64,000 bases of DNA from Lachnospiraceae bacterium NK4A179 (GTDB lineage Bacteria > Bacillota > Clostridia > Lachnospirales > Lachnospiraceae): NCBI GenBank assembly GCA_000421045.1, contig ATWC01000001.1:124001-188000 (forward strand), given 5' to 3'. A program made the translations under genes and the position numbers. This document shows, piece by piece, positions 24,329 through 41,691 of the stretch. Under the pieces are notes generated by a model, which worked only from the letters and a program-made list of their open reading frames with translations, was not told the origin of the DNA and ran no database searches. Every line of letters begins with the position of its first letter. Positions within the stretch are counted from its first letter, which is position 1.

Positions 24329-24826
24329 TCATTCCTCTGTCTGACGACTGCTCATATACTCATCAAAGAAAGCCGCTGCCCTGTCATCGGAATAGCCTCT
24401 CTTCAGGTCTATGTCGCAGACAGCACCCAGATCAACGTTGATGGTACCGGTATTGACCTCACCACGGATAACCGCTGTGGGACCTACCGACATATTTTCC
24501 TCAACATCGATAGAACCAAGTACCGCACCGCTCACATCCGCATTCTTTGCCTTGATGTTTCCGATAACGGTAACACCTGAATCTATGCTGATATAATCCA
24601 GGCACTCAATATTACTCTCGATCGTGCCCTCTGTAAGTTCCACGCGTCCTACTTTGAGATCCTTGCCCTTTACCGTTCCGTTAAGTTCAAGTGTTCCATC
24701 TATATCAACATTTCCCATCACCTCGCCGGAAAGCTTAAGATCTCCGTCACTTTCCACATCGCCTATGATGGTCATTCCCTTTGGAATATAACTCTTTCCG
24801 TTTGCTTCGCCTGAAAAACCGTCCAT
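24329..24826 (-). CDS. Bactofilin (polymer-forming cytoskeletal protein)
   Basis: 165 residues. After a short unstructured N-terminus comes KSYIPKGMTIIGDVESDGDLKLSGEVMGNVDIDGTLEL, the regular hexapeptide-like pattern of a right-handed beta-helix, continuing to about residue 135. Bactofilins polymerise without nucleotide and scaffold wall enzymes or chromosome proteins at membranes. The C-terminal 30 residues are acidic and not part of the helix. Its gene is the last of an apparent operon with a PPP-type phosphatase (26 bp upstream) and a Ser/Thr kinase, which may indicate phosphorylation control; that link is inference. AGAGGTG supports the start. Confidence 0.9.
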   Translation of the reverse strand: MDGFSGEANGKSYIPKGMTIIGDVESDGDLKLSGEVMGNVDIDGTLELNGTVKGKDLKVGRVELTEGTIESNIECLDYISIDSGVTVIGNIKAKNADVSGAVLGSIDVEENMSVGPTAVIRGEVNTGTINVDLGAVCDIDLKRGYSDDRAAAFFDEYMSSRQTEE

Positions 24827-24852
24827 TTTACACCTCTAATATACAAGATCTG

Positions 24853-25653
24853 TCAGGTATCCATCAGATCTATGTAGAATTCTTCTCCTGTATTCAGTGA
24901 TATGCACCCAAGTCTGCTTGACTTTGAATTGAGTGCCATGCCGCAGTCGATATCCATCACCTTATAACCTCTGTAGTTATCGGATTTGAATATCCTTCCC
25001 TTGCCTCTTTCATCAAGATAATTGAAACGCTGTGTGAACACATGGCCGACAATATATGTATCGCCGGAATATGCAAAGGGCTTGGGCTGACCTTCGGCCT
25101 CAGGATCACCGTACTTGTCAAAAAGACTCTCCCATACTATCATCTCTGCCTGCTTTTTGGTAGCCTGCTTGTAATAAACTTCAGTACCGAATTCCTTCTG
25201 GAGAGAGAATGAATGTGAAAGATGATATGTCACATCACCAAATTTAAGTCTTCTGATAAGCCTGAGAGAACGCAGATATTTTTCTATCTCGTCCTGCTTC
25301 TTCTTGTTCATCCTATAGAATGCTCTGGAAGTTGCAAGACCTCCGTTGGCTGAATGAACCCAGAGCTCATAAGGTGTGAGTCTTTCATCCGTCGGATCTT
25401 CCCTGATAAGCCCCTGATCCTTCTTCCTCACGTAATCAATGGTATTGAGCATCATAAGCTCATGATTGCCAAGGAAAAGCTCCATGTTACGTCTTTCCAT
25501 GATATCCAGGATCAGCTGAAGTCCATCCGGGCCTCTGTCTATGACATCTCCTAAGATGTACATGAAATCATTGCTCGAGAAATTTATCTTCTCAAGCATC
25601 TTTTTGAAAACATCATAATGTCCGTGTATGTCGCTTAAAACGTATATATTCAT
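24853..25653 (-). CDS. PPP-family metallophosphoesterase (Ser/Thr phosphatase or Ap4A hydrolase-like)
   Basis: 266 residues with calcineurin-type metal motifs: SDIHGH (residues 7-12), GDVIDRGPD (35-43) and GNHELM (62-67), plus a later GHVFTQR and the C-terminal DIDCGMA. The GDVIDRG form is that of the PPP protein phosphatases and symmetrical Ap4A hydrolases rather than generic nucleases. It starts 10 bp after the kinase stop, so it is probably the opposing phosphatase; the alternative is a dinucleoside polyphosphatase. No membrane segment is present. Confidence 0.85.
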   Translation of the reverse strand: MNIYVLSDIHGHYDVFKKMLEKINFSSNDFMYILGDVIDRGPDGLQLILDIMERRNMELFLGNHELMMLNTIDYVRKKDQGLIREDPTDERLTPYELWVHSANGGLATSRAFYRMNKKKQDEIEKYLRSLRLIRRLKFGDVTYHLSHSFSLQKEFGTEVYYKQATKKQAEMIVWESLFDKYGDPEAEGQPKPFAYSGDTYIVGHVFTQRFNYLDERGKGRIFKSDNYRGYKVMDIDCGMALNSKSSRLGCISLNTGEEFYIDLMDT

Positions 25654-25663
25654 ATGCGGCGCC

Positions 25664-27547
25664 TCACGTCATCATCTCATGTATATCATCTGCATTTACA
25701 CAGATGATAGGCCGGATGCCCATTCCCGAATTGAGTTTCCATTCGGAAAGCCTGTTGTCGATCAGCGCGTGTCCTTCGTAGTTCTCAGCGCATTTGTAGG
25801 AATCATCTATATCGATATGACCTCTTGAACGGAGACCGTAGCTCGAATGTGAGAATTTTCCGTCTGCAAGAGCTGCCACATACTGTGAGCATGGTGCCAT
25901 ATCAAGTTCAGCGCGTTCCTTTCTTGTTCCTCTCGTAAGAGAAAGTTCGATATCAAAACCGTATTTTATCTCCTCGATCGAAGGAAGATAAACCTTATCA
26001 TAAGTCGTTCTGTCAGAAAGAGCCGATACAGGCGTCGAAACTTTTGTTACCTGAAGCAATTCACGATCACCTTCCGAAAAGGCTCTGCGTACAAATACCG
26101 AATTGAGCCACTCCCTGACTTTGCTCTTCTCCCAGTAGATGCCTGTCTTGATCCTTGAGACTTCTTTGTCGTTCATCTTAAGGTATTTCTGCTGGTCGAA
26201 AGGCTTGTAATCAATGATATATTCACTTTCAAGAGTGATACGTTCACCTCTTTCGGCAACTATCCTCCAGGAAAGCATATTGAACTTAAAGTACCTGAAA
26301 CCGGTGATCTCGCTTTCCTGCTTGGTTCCGCGCATCATGCTGAACAGATCCATTTCACCGGAATTATTTCTGATAATGGGCATACGAAGATATCTCTCCC
26401 CTCCGATAGTTGCCACATCATCCTTATCGTATTCGGCATAGATCAGATCGCTTGTGATACCTGCCCCGGTGATCTCGTTCATCGGGTACTCACCGAACCA
26501 TATCCTGCCGTTCCTGTCTTTTAATATATGATTTCCTTCAGTCTTGTTCTGTTCCCTGACATTTTTCTCATCAGGATAGACACCGTACAGATCATGATAG
26601 AGTTCTTCAATGCTCTGCTGACGATCCTGGGGCCTCATTGAAAGTCCCTTCATTATAGCAGCTGCGACCTTCTTATCTATCTGTATGGTGTAATCGGCGA
26701 TATCGATCAGCTCATCCTTTTCGTTACGTTCAAAGGACGACTGAGGTATGTCTCCGGTCATCATGCAGTAAAGTGTCGCGCATATTCCGTATATATCCGT
26801 CCACGGTCCCTGTTCGGAAAGTTTGGAAAGCATCTGCTCAAGAGGAGCAAATCCCCACTTGCCGAGGAAAACCTGCTGGTTAGCAAAACCTATCTTTCTG
26901 GAACCGCCAAAATCGATCAATTTGATGGAACCGTCTTCATCAAGCATTATGTTATCGGGGCTTATGTCGCGATGGATAAGGCCTGACTTATGAAGCCTTC
27001 CGAGTATGCTGATAACAGGCTCCATCTTTGAAAGAGCCTCATCAACAGGAAGCCAGCCACCGTGCGCATCGATATACTTGCGCAGGTTGCCGCTCTCAAG
27101 ATATTCCATTATCAGATAGCCGGTATTATTCTGATAGAAAAGATCTTTGACCGCAACAATACCGGGGAACTTTGAAAATTCCGCCAGTATCCTTGCTTCT
27201 CGAAGATATGCCTTTGTTTCTTTGTCGTACTCGTCTTTATTGACCGCATCAAGAACAAGAACCGTGTGCCCGTCCTCTGCACGGTCGACCATTTCGTCAG
27301 GGAAGAATTCCTTGACTGCAACCTTATACTCAAGCAACATGTCATAACCGATGTAGGTTATTCCGTAACCGCCTTTTCCGAGTATGTTGCCTATTAATAT
27401 TTTTTGATTAAGGATAGTCCCCGGCTCCAAAGCCTTTGACCAGGTCTGCTGACCCTTCTTTTCTCTGCCGCAATAAGGACAGATAACAGGATCATCACTG
27501 ACCATCATACATCTGAGACAGATCCGTTTGATTTCCGACTGCTCCAT
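25664..27547 (-). CDS. Ser/Thr protein kinase with N-terminal zinc ribbon and C-terminal DUF6273-like domain
   Basis: 627 residues from MEQSEIKR (GGGGGAAA upstream). A zinc ribbon uses Cys10, 13, 23 and 26. The kinase domain (about 50-320) keeps GKGGYGITY (57-65), VAVKEFF with Lys79, HRDISPDN (192-199) and DFG (212-214). The C-terminal half (about 360-627: WLNSVFVRRAF, SIEEIKYGF, YGLRSRG, GMGIRPIICV) looks like a DUF6273 module, often joined to surface proteins in Lachnospiraceae but here fused to a soluble kinase. There is no membrane segment or PASTA repeat, so it is not PrkC. The longer ORF start at 27628 overlaps the -10, which supports the shorter one. Confidence 0.88.
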   Translation of the reverse strand: MEQSEIKRICLRCMMVSDDPVICPYCGREKKGQQTWSKALEPGTILNQKILIGNILGKGGYGITYIGYDMLLEYKVAVKEFFPDEMVDRAEDGHTVLVLDAVNKDEYDKETKAYLREARILAEFSKFPGIVAVKDLFYQNNTGYLIMEYLESGNLRKYIDAHGGWLPVDEALSKMEPVISILGRLHKSGLIHRDISPDNIMLDEDGSIKLIDFGGSRKIGFANQQVFLGKWGFAPLEQMLSKLSEQGPWTDIYGICATLYCMMTGDIPQSSFERNEKDELIDIADYTIQIDKKVAAAIMKGLSMRPQDRQQSIEELYHDLYGVYPDEKNVREQNKTEGNHILKDRNGRIWFGEYPMNEITGAGITSDLIYAEYDKDDVATIGGERYLRMPIIRNNSGEMDLFSMMRGTKQESEITGFRYFKFNMLSWRIVAERGERITLESEYIIDYKPFDQQKYLKMNDKEVSRIKTGIYWEKSKVREWLNSVFVRRAFSEGDRELLQVTKVSTPVSALSDRTTYDKVYLPSIEEIKYGFDIELSLTRGTRKERAELDMAPCSQYVAALADGKFSHSSYGLRSRGHIDIDDSYKCAENYEGHALIDNRLSEWKLNSGMGIRPIICVNADDIHEMMT

Positions 27548-27626
27548 TTTTCCCCCGGCAAGCTCCCGAATGTAAAGAACATCACATCCGTTTTTGCTTT
27601 TGATTAGGCCCGAATGAGCCAAGACC

Positions 27627-27655
27627 ATTATAAACTTATTTAGAGCGTTTTACTA
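27627..27655 (-). promoter_or_regulatory. Candidate promoter of the kinase-phosphatase-bactofilin operon
   Basis: Minus-strand TAGTAA (27650-27655), 17 bp, perfect TATAAT (27627-27632). The -35 is weak. Confidence 0.48.
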
Positions 27656-39122: not shown

Positions 39123-39731
39123 TCACTCATGATGCATTTTGTTTATCGTATCAGTAAGTTCGCCCAATGTAGCCGATATACTCTTGCTCGTAGCGCTCAT
39201 ACTGACAGCCAATCCCTGCACCTCTTCGGCAACTACGGAGAAGCCTCTTCCGTGCTCTCCGGCTCTGGCCGCCTCGATCGAAGCATTCAGTGCAAGTATC
39301 TTCTGCTTGTTACAAAATGTGCCTATCTGACCGGTATCCTTATTGGCCTGAACGATAAGCTTTGCAGCTTTGTCTATGCCTTCCTTCAGATCCTCAAATG
39401 CGATCTTATTCTTAAATTCTTCATAGGATGTGTGCACAAACAGATCCAGTACATCCCTTAACAATCCGGATCCCGCTTTCATGATCTCTTCAGAAGGTTC
39501 GGGACCGTCCGCAGCCCCTCCTACAACTCTTCCGATCACCTGTCCGTCTTCAAGCACAAGTTGGAACTCAAAATCTCTCAGTTTCTTTGCGGTTTCTCTG
39601 TCCATACCGCATACCACGAGCATGTCACCTTCAGCTGATATGACCGCTGCCGCAAAACCGGTTGCACCGGCCCAGTTACTTACATAACCTTCAAGCTTAT
39701 GCAGATCGCAGAAATCCTTTATCCTAACCAT
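39123..39731 (-). CDS. Small soluble chemoreceptor-like protein (PocR-like sensor plus short MCP segment)
   Basis: 202 residues without membrane segments. The N-terminus (KLEGYVSNWAGATGFAAAVISAEGDML) resembles PocR/diguanylate-type ligand-binding domains; residues about 140-200 contain KILALNASIEAARAGEHGRGFSVVAEEV, the conserved stretch of the MCP signalling domain. A normal MCP signalling domain is about 250 residues, so this one is severely shortened and lacks the full coiled-coil hairpin. AAAGGGGCG supports the start. It may be a cytoplasmic sensor or a decoy; methylation sites were not identified. Confidence 0.75.
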   Translation of the reverse strand: MVRIKDFCDLHKLEGYVSNWAGATGFAAAVISAEGDMLVVCGMDRETAKKLRDFEFQLVLEDGQVIGRVVGGAADGPEPSEEIMKAGSGLLRDVLDLFVHTSYEEFKNKIAFEDLKEGIDKAAKLIVQANKDTGQIGTFCNKQKILALNASIEAARAGEHGRGFSVVAEEVQGLAVSMSATSKSISATLGELTDTINKMHHE

Positions 39732-39821: not shown

Positions 39822-39850
39822 AAAAAAGGACAGCACATAAAGTGCTGTCC
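39822..39850 (-). terminator. Terminator of the SHOCT-repeat gene
   Basis: GGACAGCAC (39828-39836) / GTGCTGTCC (39842-39850), 5-nt loop, T6 after it on the minus strand. Confidence 0.93.
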
Positions 39851-39863
39851 CTTTTGATCTTTA

Positions 39864-41573
39864 TCAGATTCCAAGAAGCTTTTCCTTGTAGTTATCGTAT
39901 TCTTCCTGTGATATGATATTGGCTTCACTGATGCTCTTAAGCAGATCTGCCTTTGCCTTGAATTCGTCCATGCTGCTGTAAGGAGCAAATATATCGCGGA
40001 TGACTTCCTGCTTCTTTGTCTCGAACTCCTCGTCTGTTGAAAGCTTGCAATCTCTTGCAACCATAAGGAGTTTCATACGCTGTACAACATCCGGCATCTC
40101 GATGATAGCCTTTAATATCTCGAGCTTCTTGCCATGGTAATCCATCTCTGAAAGCCATGTCTTATCCTTAAGCATTACAACGCGCTCGATCTTTGCCTTG
40201 AGTGAAGGCTCGTCGCCTGCAGGAAGAGCCATTACCTGACCGATGAAGCTATCCTGCTTTGTCTTATACTCTTCAGGAGAAGCAGCTCCGGCTGCAACCA
40301 TTGCCGGCCATCTTGAGAGCTTCATCTCGAGGAGATCAAGATCATCGCCGATGCTGGGATCGAGAAGGCTCTTGAGTTCTCTCATATCTGATTCATATTC
40401 TTCTCTTGATACGAGTTCTGCATCAATGAGGATAGGCAGCTTCTGAAGTTTTAATGTGAAGTCCTCGTTGCTGTCGTTAGGATCATATGTAACGCTGTCA
40501 AGGAGCGTAGCTTTTCCGGCATCAAATTCTGCCTCAGATACTATACCGCTTATCTGGATGATAGGAAGCTTAGCGGTATTGCTTCTGAATGTAGGAAGAT
40601 CTCTGATCGTAGGATCGAAAGCTTCGCTTACAAGTGTATTCTTGCTGCTCTCATATTCAGCATCGCTTAAGATACCTGACTCATGTGTAACGATAACACG
40701 GCTGATCTTGTCGTAGTATTCTGTCATGCCGCGCTCTTCGCAGATGAGCTTTAATGTCTTGTCCTTATACTCAGTTTCAGAGATCATGCCTGACTCATGA
40801 AGGATCTCAAGCTTCTGTCTCTTAGCTGCATAATCTTCCTTCTTCTGAGGTGAAGGGATCGTGCCCTTTGCTGCTGCAGAATTTACAGCTGCTGCAACTG
40901 CGGTACGTGAAGGTGTGTAAGAAGGTACTGCAGGCTGTGCAGGTGCTGCTGCAGGTGCGGGAGCCTGTGCCTGTGCTGCAGGAGCGGGAGCAGGTGCCTG
41001 TGCCTGAGCTGCAGGAGCAGGTGCAGGCGCTGCTGCGGGAGCAGGTGCTGCCTGCGCCTGTGCTGCCTGTGCCTGTGCACGAGCTGCTGTCGGACGAGGT
41101 GCAGGTGCAGGCTTTGCCTGAGCTGCAGGCTTGGGAGCAGGTGCGGGTGCAGGTGCAGGCGCTGCTGCAGGCTTTGCGGGTGCTGCTGCTCCGGGTGCAT
41201 CTCCTGAAAGACCACCGGCTGCCTTTGATATCTCTGTGAGGCGCTCGATAGCTTTGTTCATATCTTTAAGTCCGGGAAGGATCGTCTGTGTCTTCTTTGC
41301 ACCGTAAAGGGTCTGAAGCTTTGTAACGATGATAAGAGCATCTGAGCCCTGGAACTCACCCTTCTTGACGTCCCTGATATCCTTTGCGGGATAATCATAC
41401 TGGGAGACATATTCATTCTTTCCATCTTCATTACAGATATAACCCTTACCGGTAACCTTTACTCCATCCGGCTTGGTGTCATCGATCTGCAGGAAAAGCT
41501 TTTCCTGGCTCTTCGCTGAAAGAAAACTCTTGAGGGAACTTCCCCAGTTGCACTGAAATACTTCTACTGCCAT
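39864..41573 (-). CDS. Protein with eight SHOCT-like repeats behind an Ala/Pro/Gln linker
   Basis: 569 residues, no signal or membrane segment. Residues 1-120 form a compact N-terminal domain (VFQCNWGSSLKSF, VTGKGYICNEDGKNEY) of PH/GRAM-like appearance. Residues 126-217 are a pure Ala/Pro/Gln linker. Residues 250-569 hold eight units of about 43 residues, each with hydrophobic helix, turn such as SGMIS, and EEY-type motif; the conserved Tyr/Phe are at 269, 307, 350, 393, 436, 479, 517 and 559. The unit resembles SHOCT domains (short C-terminal, often oligomerising), normally present once. Own promoter, AGGAGGAT site and terminator. Function unknown; probably a cytoplasmic scaffold. Confidence 0.8.
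   Translation of the reverse strand: MAVEVFQCNWGSSLKSFLSAKSQEKLFLQIDDTKPDGVKVTGKGYICNEDGKNEYVSQYDYPAKDIRDVKKGEFQGSDALIIVTKLQTLYGAKKTQTILPGLKDMNKAIERLTEISKAAGGLSGDAPGAAAPAKPAAAPAPAPAPAPKPAAQAKPAPAPRPTAARAQAQAAQAQAAPAPAAAPAPAPAAQAQAPAPAPAAQAQAPAPAAAPAQPAVPSYTPSRTAVAAAVNSAAAKGTIPSPQKKEDYAAKRQKLEILHESGMISETEYKDKTLKLICEERGMTEYYDKISRVIVTHESGILSDAEYESSKNTLVSEAFDPTIRDLPTFRSNTAKLPIIQISGIVSEAEFDAGKATLLDSVTYDPNDSNEDFTLKLQKLPILIDAELVSREEYESDMRELKSLLDPSIGDDLDLLEMKLSRWPAMVAAGAASPEEYKTKQDSFIGQVMALPAGDEPSLKAKIERVVMLKDKTWLSEMDYHGKKLEILKAIIEMPDVVQRMKLLMVARDCKLSTDEEFETKKQEVIRDIFAPYSSMDEFKAKADLLKSISEANIISQEEYDNYKEKLLGI
40923..41198. repeat. GC-rich Ala/Pro/Gln-coding low-complexity tract
   Basis: GCTGCAGGAGCAGGTG-type degenerate repeats encode the linker at residues 126-217 and create long spurious frames on both strands. 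Prone to slippage. Confidence 0.8.
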
Positions 41574-41662
41574 TGCGATAATCCTCCTGTGATCATTTAT
41601 GAACCGCTAAAAGAATATTCCCCCCAGACATATTCCTAAATCGATTTAACTTTACAGTTTTT

Positions 41663-41691
41663 ACTATAACAGCAGGATATTAATATTACAA
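41663..41691 (-). promoter_or_regulatory. Promoter of the SHOCT-repeat gene
   Basis: Minus-strand TTGTAA (41686-41691), 17 bp, TATAGT (41663-41668) with an extended TGT; leader about 85 nt. Confidence 0.72.

Follow-up and report, generated by a model that had tools for sequence, protein, structure and literature searches.

The C-terminal part of a protein from Lachnospiraceae bacterium NK4A179 is an array of eight SHOCT units that is frozen in length over four genera; such an array, bacterial and joined to a head that is predicted to adopt a PH-type fold, is newly found. The gene, an open reading frame of 569 residues with an ATG start (39864-41573, minus strand), is located in what we call the window, namely, the whole stretch of 64,000 nucleotides that was analysed, and its features are included in Table 1. 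We give about an even chance to a reading in which its product is an abundant cytosolic scaffold, expanded from a single-SHOCT ancestor, as follows. First, the eight SHOCT helical hairpins of the C-terminal 326 residues would be packed into one continuous alpha-solenoid of fixed length, whose position-specific surfaces would bind partner proteins. Second, a long and flexible Ala/Pro/Gln tether would link this solenoid to the PH-fold head, which may dock on one target, be it a membrane-associated protein, a phosphoprotein or a lipid. Third, a PH-linker-SHOCT protein, of a layout that other Lachnospiraceae still have, would have seen its one C-terminal SHOCT multiplied to eight, and the array then frozen.

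Table 1. Coordinates, within the window, of the array gene, its signals and domains, and two possible partner genes.
Feature	Coordinates	Strand	Remarks
PH-fold/Ala-Pro linker/eight-SHOCT protein, CDS	39867..41573	-	569 aa, ATG start; stop 39864-39866
Shine-Dalgarno AGGAGG	41583..41588	-	9 nt before ATG; from sequence
Promoter-like TTGTAA-N17-TATAGT, TG before -10 (extended -10)	41663..41691	-	pattern scan
Intrinsic terminator (stem of 9 bp, with T6 behind it on minus strand)	39822..39850	-	from sequence
N-terminal domain, predicted PH-type fold	41217..41573	-	residues 1-119; AlphaFold2 and structural matches
Disordered Ala/Pro/Gln linker	40845..41216	-	residues 120-243; pLDDT mostly below 50; composition
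SHOCT unit 1	40728..40844	-	residues 244-282; profile match 98.5%
SHOCT unit 2	40614..40730	-	residues 282-320; 97.5%
SHOCT unit 3	40485..40601	-	residues 325-363; 97.2%
SHOCT unit 4	40356..40472	-	residues 368-406; 97.6%; single-sequence Pfam match absent
SHOCT unit 5	40227..40343	-	residues 411-449; 97.5%; single-sequence Pfam match absent
SHOCT unit 6, most divergent	40098..40214	-	residues 454-492; 96.7%; single-sequence Pfam match absent
SHOCT unit 7	39984..40100	-	residues 492-530; 97.4%
SHOCT unit 8, C-terminal	39867..39974	-	residues 534-569; 98.5%
Ser/Thr protein kinase, C-terminal DUF6273	25664..27628	-	possible partner; zinc-ribbon-like N-terminal cysteines by eye
Calcineurin-like phosphoesterase adjoining kinase	24853..25653	-	possible partner

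Eight SHOCT-like units had been described in an initial annotation of the window, and both their number and their spacing proved exact, since the anchors E-[YF] (D-Y in unit 6) follow each other at 38, 43, 43, 43, 43, 38 and 42 residues. The Pfam SHOCT model (PF09851) matches the whole protein with an E value of 9.2e-8 and 32 bits (curated cut-off, 27), and at E<=1 it matches 28 of the 28 arrays of the genus, that of the window included, the best of them at 4.9e-19. Scanned one by one, five of the eight units (1, 2, 3, 7 and 8) gave weak SHOCT matches, with E values from 0.0025 to 0.055, and units 4-6 gave none with single sequences. The SHOCT identity of all eight was obtained by comparison of unit profiles, built from 18 homologues, with a profile made from the ends of 23 single-SHOCT proteins: the matches were of 96.7-98.5%, ungapped and in register over 34-36 columns, with a reference set that had been found using the array profile and is therefore not independent of the array. 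Column-shuffled controls were as good in 0/60 cases for any unit, and reversed profiles reached 3.6% at most, which rules out chance resemblance. Pfam scans of eight members of the reference set placed five over the SHOCT cut-off and two below it, the remaining one giving a weak SHOCT_2 match only. When the unit profiles were compared among themselves in 56 directed pairs, 48 gave matches of 55-97%, and the other eight, seven of which involve unit 6, of 0.1-55%. Gas vesicle protein G (GvpG, PF05120) also matches 28 of 28 arrays, at the N-terminal unit (best, 5.2e-10); these matches probably reflect SHOCT-like helices, and GvpG and SHOCT may have the hairpin in common.

As expected for SHOCT, the units are predicted to consist of two helices, and indels are absent from helices and loop, except that in one of 18 relatives (L027) the turn of unit 6 is longer by one residue. 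According to the paper describing the domain (PMC3581485), most SHOCT proteins have a single copy, usually near the C-terminus, and multi-copy proteins also exist; the eight copies reported here depart from this habit, which is usual rather than defining. The same description includes a protein of Naegleria gruberi, D2VS68, which like ours has eight two-helix SHOCT repeats, and thus eight copies are not unheard of. When compared with D2VS68 and with SHOCT proteins as described there, our protein differs in being bacterial, in having an array whose length is frozen over four genera, and in its PH-fold head and Ala/Pro linker. A bacterial multi-SHOCT array is named in no title or abstract opening found by a full-text search of the SHOCT literature.

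In each of 38 full-length homologues, which represent four Lachnospiraceae genera (32 proteins from the genus of the window and six from three others), the array measures 323-328 residues, whereas the linker of the same proteins ranges from 55 to 196 residues. These 38 distinct proteins come from 39 rows, one of which was dropped as a partial version of the window's own copy, and the whole eight-unit profile is present in every one of them. The units inside one protein are only 15-27% identical, and between genera the same-position units are the closest in eight of eight rows (27-43% versus 15-26%, 12 by 6 proteins). It follows that the units can no longer be interchanged and that the duplication predates these genera, or at least the copy of their common ancestor. 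Taken together, divergent units, same-position closeness and a length fixed in 38/38 proteins make the array look like one continuous domain, or one fixed scaffold, rather than loose beads. Indeed, indels should be as acceptable in beads on flexible joints as they are in the linker, but not in a packed solenoid. A variable array under recent expansion is ruled out by the fixed length and positional orthology. The initial annotation was right in that the units do match SHOCT, and it is nonetheless as one continuous domain that they behave, an outcome that it had counted in part against itself; its array of equivalent modules is not upheld.

These observations bear on the idea that the protein is a multivalent former of oligomers or condensates, whose eight similar hairpins self-associate, as would suit the repeat number and the low-complexity linker. 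However, the units are diverged and the array is frozen, and in the published work (PMC3581485) a fusion of one isolated SHOCT remained monomeric and did not support oligomerisation, contrary to the link between SHOCT and oligomerisation from which the initial annotation had started. We consider this the least probable of the readings discussed here. Protein or nucleic-acid binding, or localisation, are the hypotheses on SHOCT function put forward in the same text (PMC3581485). SHOCT is widespread, and a natural array of eight copies and fixed length, in a protein that seems to be abundant, is a good object for studying hairpin packing and binding.

The solenoid is deduced from one AlphaFold2 model of the whole protein, based on 28 fairly similar sequences and with a pTM of 0.50 for the model as a whole, which predicts the helical array, the disordered linker and the PH-type head. 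The array has 17 predicted helical segments rather than the 16 expected, since unit 3 has its first helix broken in two, with pLDDT values of 79-96 (10-residue means, residue 251 onward), inter-unit turns included. With Foldseek, the array gave weak matches to HEAT/ARM-type solenoids, namely, VPS35, importins, CAND1 and PP2A (E 0.1-0.4, probability 0.2-0.6), and the whole model gave no match reaching an E value of 0.001. Likeness to these alpha-solenoids lies in the predicted stack of helical hairpins; in contrast, the unit is here a SHOCT, no sequence relation was found, and the structural similarity is weak. Should the solenoid prove true, it would be a new repeat class among alpha-solenoids. 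The sequence searches of solved structures gave no convincing relative of the protein. The Ala/Pro/Gln linker, which had been noticed initially, comprises 124 residues between the domains, including 55 Ala, 29 Pro and 11 Gln.

For the head, the AlphaFold2 model has seven strands and a C-terminal helix (pLDDT 84.5, pTM 0.79), with low confidence at residues 13-22. Its structural alignments, in the 50 matches listed, are by title nearly all to PH, PTB, FERM-F3 or PRU domains, with Z values of 7.0-8.3 and rmsd of 2.8-5.7 over 73-97 residues; these Z values are middling, and nine of 999 chains reach Z>=8. Foldseek gave nothing at E <= 0.001 for the head, and its top row was SsgB, which is not a PH domain. 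The window's head matches no Pfam family, PH models included, and the heads of other members only weakly match unrelated families; designed TIM barrels, which appeared as matches of the head profile, were dropped as they had no passing stretch. Thus, the PH-like N-terminus proposed initially holds at the level of the predicted fold, on which the listed structural rows agree strongly, but not at that of Pfam families.

A head of this predicted fold would also suit a membrane or envelope sensor, in which the protein is kept at the inner leaflet by its SHOCT units or by its head, as has been proposed for SHOCT-like domains in phage-shock-type systems, but PH-type folds bind many things, proteins included. 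Moreover, GRAVY is negative for head, linker and array alike, the array is acidic (pI 4.75, charge about -20), and a Pfam scan of eight window neighbours showed no phage-shock component. The proposal of anchoring to the inner leaflet by SHOCT-like domains comes from a phage-shock paper (PMC11237479), and on balance we regard this sensor as distinctly unlikely.

The layout of head, linker and SHOCT is found in other Lachnospiraceae, in proteins where an Ala/Pro or other stretch is followed by one C-terminal SHOCT. From 26 loci (L111-L136), 23 single-SHOCT ends were kept as reference, two of them identical; L117 and L130 were dropped because the reading frame taken there did not give a SHOCT. 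The motif search missed the SHOCT-like end that is visible in L126, which was left out for this reason. The head profile of the array protein matched those of the single-SHOCT proteins as follows: 94.2% for a zinc-ribbon group, 89.3% for the group of L119, L122 and L126, 85.6% for L116 and 93.7% for L116 with L131, with only 45.6% for L131 alone, which is a single sequence. Shuffled profiles were as good in 0/60 cases for each of the four best of these five profiles. The single-SHOCT head profiles match each other poorly in places, namely, zinc-ribbon against L119 group at 9% and against L116 at 6%, and L119 group against L116 at 0.6%, and therefore the head family is loosely held together.

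Among the closest known proteins is the zinc-ribbon group (L112-L115, L118, L120, L121 and L123), with zinc-ribbon-like CxxC motifs, a PH-like domain and an Ala/Pro-rich linker: it shares with the array protein the head profile (94%, with seven of its eight members used), the low-complexity linker and the C-terminal SHOCT, and differs from it in having one SHOCT rather than eight, extra N-terminal CxxC motifs and other neighbours. A gene starting near MRGI[DE]TxVRKxRxRxFKE is a neighbour in seven of these eight zinc-ribbon-like/PH loci (L112, L113, L114, L115, L118, L120 and L123; not L121). Bacterial proteins with a PH domain and a C-terminal SHOCT, such as L125 (22.3 bits against bPH_3, cut-off 23), also share the PH-type fold plus SHOCT, and here the difference is that the head of the array protein matches no Pfam PH model. 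Most simply, the eight-unit protein would be an expanded member of the PH-linker-SHOCT layout, one copy presumably having given rise to eight. The single-copy relatives allow a comparison of what the expansion changed.

The array itself is narrowly distributed, its carriers being some gut and rumen bacteria. Homologues are present in 31 of the 35 genomes of the genus, the window's own included, and in 22 of the 23 good ones; in the other four (G007, G008, G021 and G034), of which three are less than 90% complete, none was found, also when searching with the array profile. A second copy of the whole gene stands in tandem in four genomes (G012, G015, G019 and G030), while G013 has only the end of such a copy. 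Outside the genus, the array was found in G149, in G153 and in four genomes of genus g22, an array match being absent from the fifth, G055. Profile searches detected the full array in six of 397 genomes of the family sample; among the 398 genomes of the phylum sample, that of the window was the sole carrier. These samples contain one genome per species, and the 30 loci obtained from named records, which are titled Lachnospiraceae (29) or Bacillota (1) and in ten cases name a rumen or omasum sample, largely repeat the species of the genus genomes; homologues are present in records of Lachnospiraceae bacterium XPB1003, AB2028 and NC2008. A plain protein search matched 24 of 250 family genomes, of which only G000, G002, G153 and G149 carry the array; two further matches, in G180 and G210, stem from single-SHOCT relatives, and the others lie mainly over the Ala/Pro linker, which is why head profiles (A2, A5) and array profiles (A3, A4) were used. 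An order-level match in G558 (E 1.6e-4) was dropped, as it appears to be a different, membrane protein.

A survey of 196 genomes of the order with PF09851 showed no frame with several SHOCT copies among the matches listed, judged by their coordinates, at a limit of 0.1 that is insensitive, given that the array's own units score E 0.175 or worse; one contig (G430:C70) has two matches 37 bases apart, in different frames. Translated searches with the array (tblastn, E 0.01) covered 50,697 records of phages and 72,556 of plasmids without a match, on which ground a phage or plasmid origin was rejected, and of 100 pattern matches in viral contigs none was confirmed.

Regarding expression, the gene does have a promoter-like element and a terminator, as stated in the initial annotation. 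The promoter-like element has its TTG-N17-TGnTAnnnT columns invariant in seven of seven aligned sequences, namely, the window and its six closest relatives. Just past the stop of the gene, the minus strand reads a stem, GGACAGCAC/GTGCTGTCC, and then six T; the pattern scan had reported this stem on the plus strand only, the T6 of the minus strand being read from the sequence, and a GC-rich stem-loop is seen by eye at this position in five of six aligned relatives. With its own promoter and terminator, the array gene is probably transcribed alone. Its codon adaptation is 0.79, ranking third among 51 window ORFs of at least 120 residues, a rank that does not change when Ala, Pro and Gln codons are omitted, and above the mean of 0.72 of the reference, i.e. 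24 minus-strand ORFs from the region of the genome's own ribosomal operon, of which, by eye, two are spurious and a few are not ribosomal. Codon usage at the level of the ribosomal operon, together with the conserved promoter, suggests that the protein is probably abundant, as first supposed, although high codon bias can also mark metabolic enzymes. A long antisense frame over the Ala/Pro linker (40850-41239, plus strand) is probably a product of the repetitive GC-rich codons of the linker and not a gene.

The gene next upstream is rng, encoding RNase E/G, in all 26 loci of the genus with enough upstream DNA (30 were examined, and four end too soon), and also in G153. In five of 30 loci rplU follows at a distance of up to 300 bases, and in G153 of up to 460. 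This arrangement, near the rplU-prp-rpmA-obg cluster, might suggest a factor of RNA decay or ribosome assembly. However, the array gene has signals of its own, about 8 kb of sequence showed no rng in any of the four loci from g22 or in that of G149 (genus g116), the array is acidic, and gene position may simply be inherited; such a role thus appears very improbable to us. The genes downstream of the array gene vary between loci. Just downstream, the window has a 202-residue protein (39123-39731) with a fragment of the MCP signalling domain (PF00015), which is beside the array gene in five of 30 loci of relatives.

More suggestive is a pair formed by a Ser/Thr kinase with DUF6273 and a calcineurin-like phosphoesterase, which in the window are consecutive with a bactofilin on one strand (24329-27628). 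The two are adjacent in 20 of 20 genomes of the genus searched. In G149, their orthologues (56% identity for the kinase and 54% for the phosphatase) follow the array gene on the same strand, after a gap of 35 nt. The pair, defined by a full-length kinase that scores over 600 bits and an adjoining phosphatase that scores over 190, was looked for in 60 hand-picked genomes: 21 of the 25 with the array have it, as does one of the 35 without a detected array. The protein could accordingly be imagined to belong to a Hanks-type Ser/Thr kinase-phosphatase pathway, either as its substrate or as an adaptor, with its head or solenoid presenting clients to the window pair. However, the four g22 genomes have the array without the pair and G008 has the pair without the array, all 60 genomes have weaker kinase matches, and the genes adjoin in one genome only, the distance being about 12 kb in the window and about 100 kb in G001, with separate contigs in G153. 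The co-occurrence may, moreover, only mirror the shared ancestry of genera g1, g116 and g120. Given these exceptions and this possible ancestry, we take the association as a lead only, and the role of adaptor or substrate as unlikely. We are somewhat more doubtful still of a bolder proposal, in which the SHOCT solenoid would be an unrecognised repeat class and the protein the central scaffold of such a pathway, as abundant as ribosomal proteins and with a head that reads phosphorylation or membrane state. As a last observation on these loci, in L064 (from 3761 and 5487) and L089 (from 3616 and 5463) two additional genes separate DUF2344 from rng, and those of L064 look by eye GGDEF/EAL-like and NUDIX-like.
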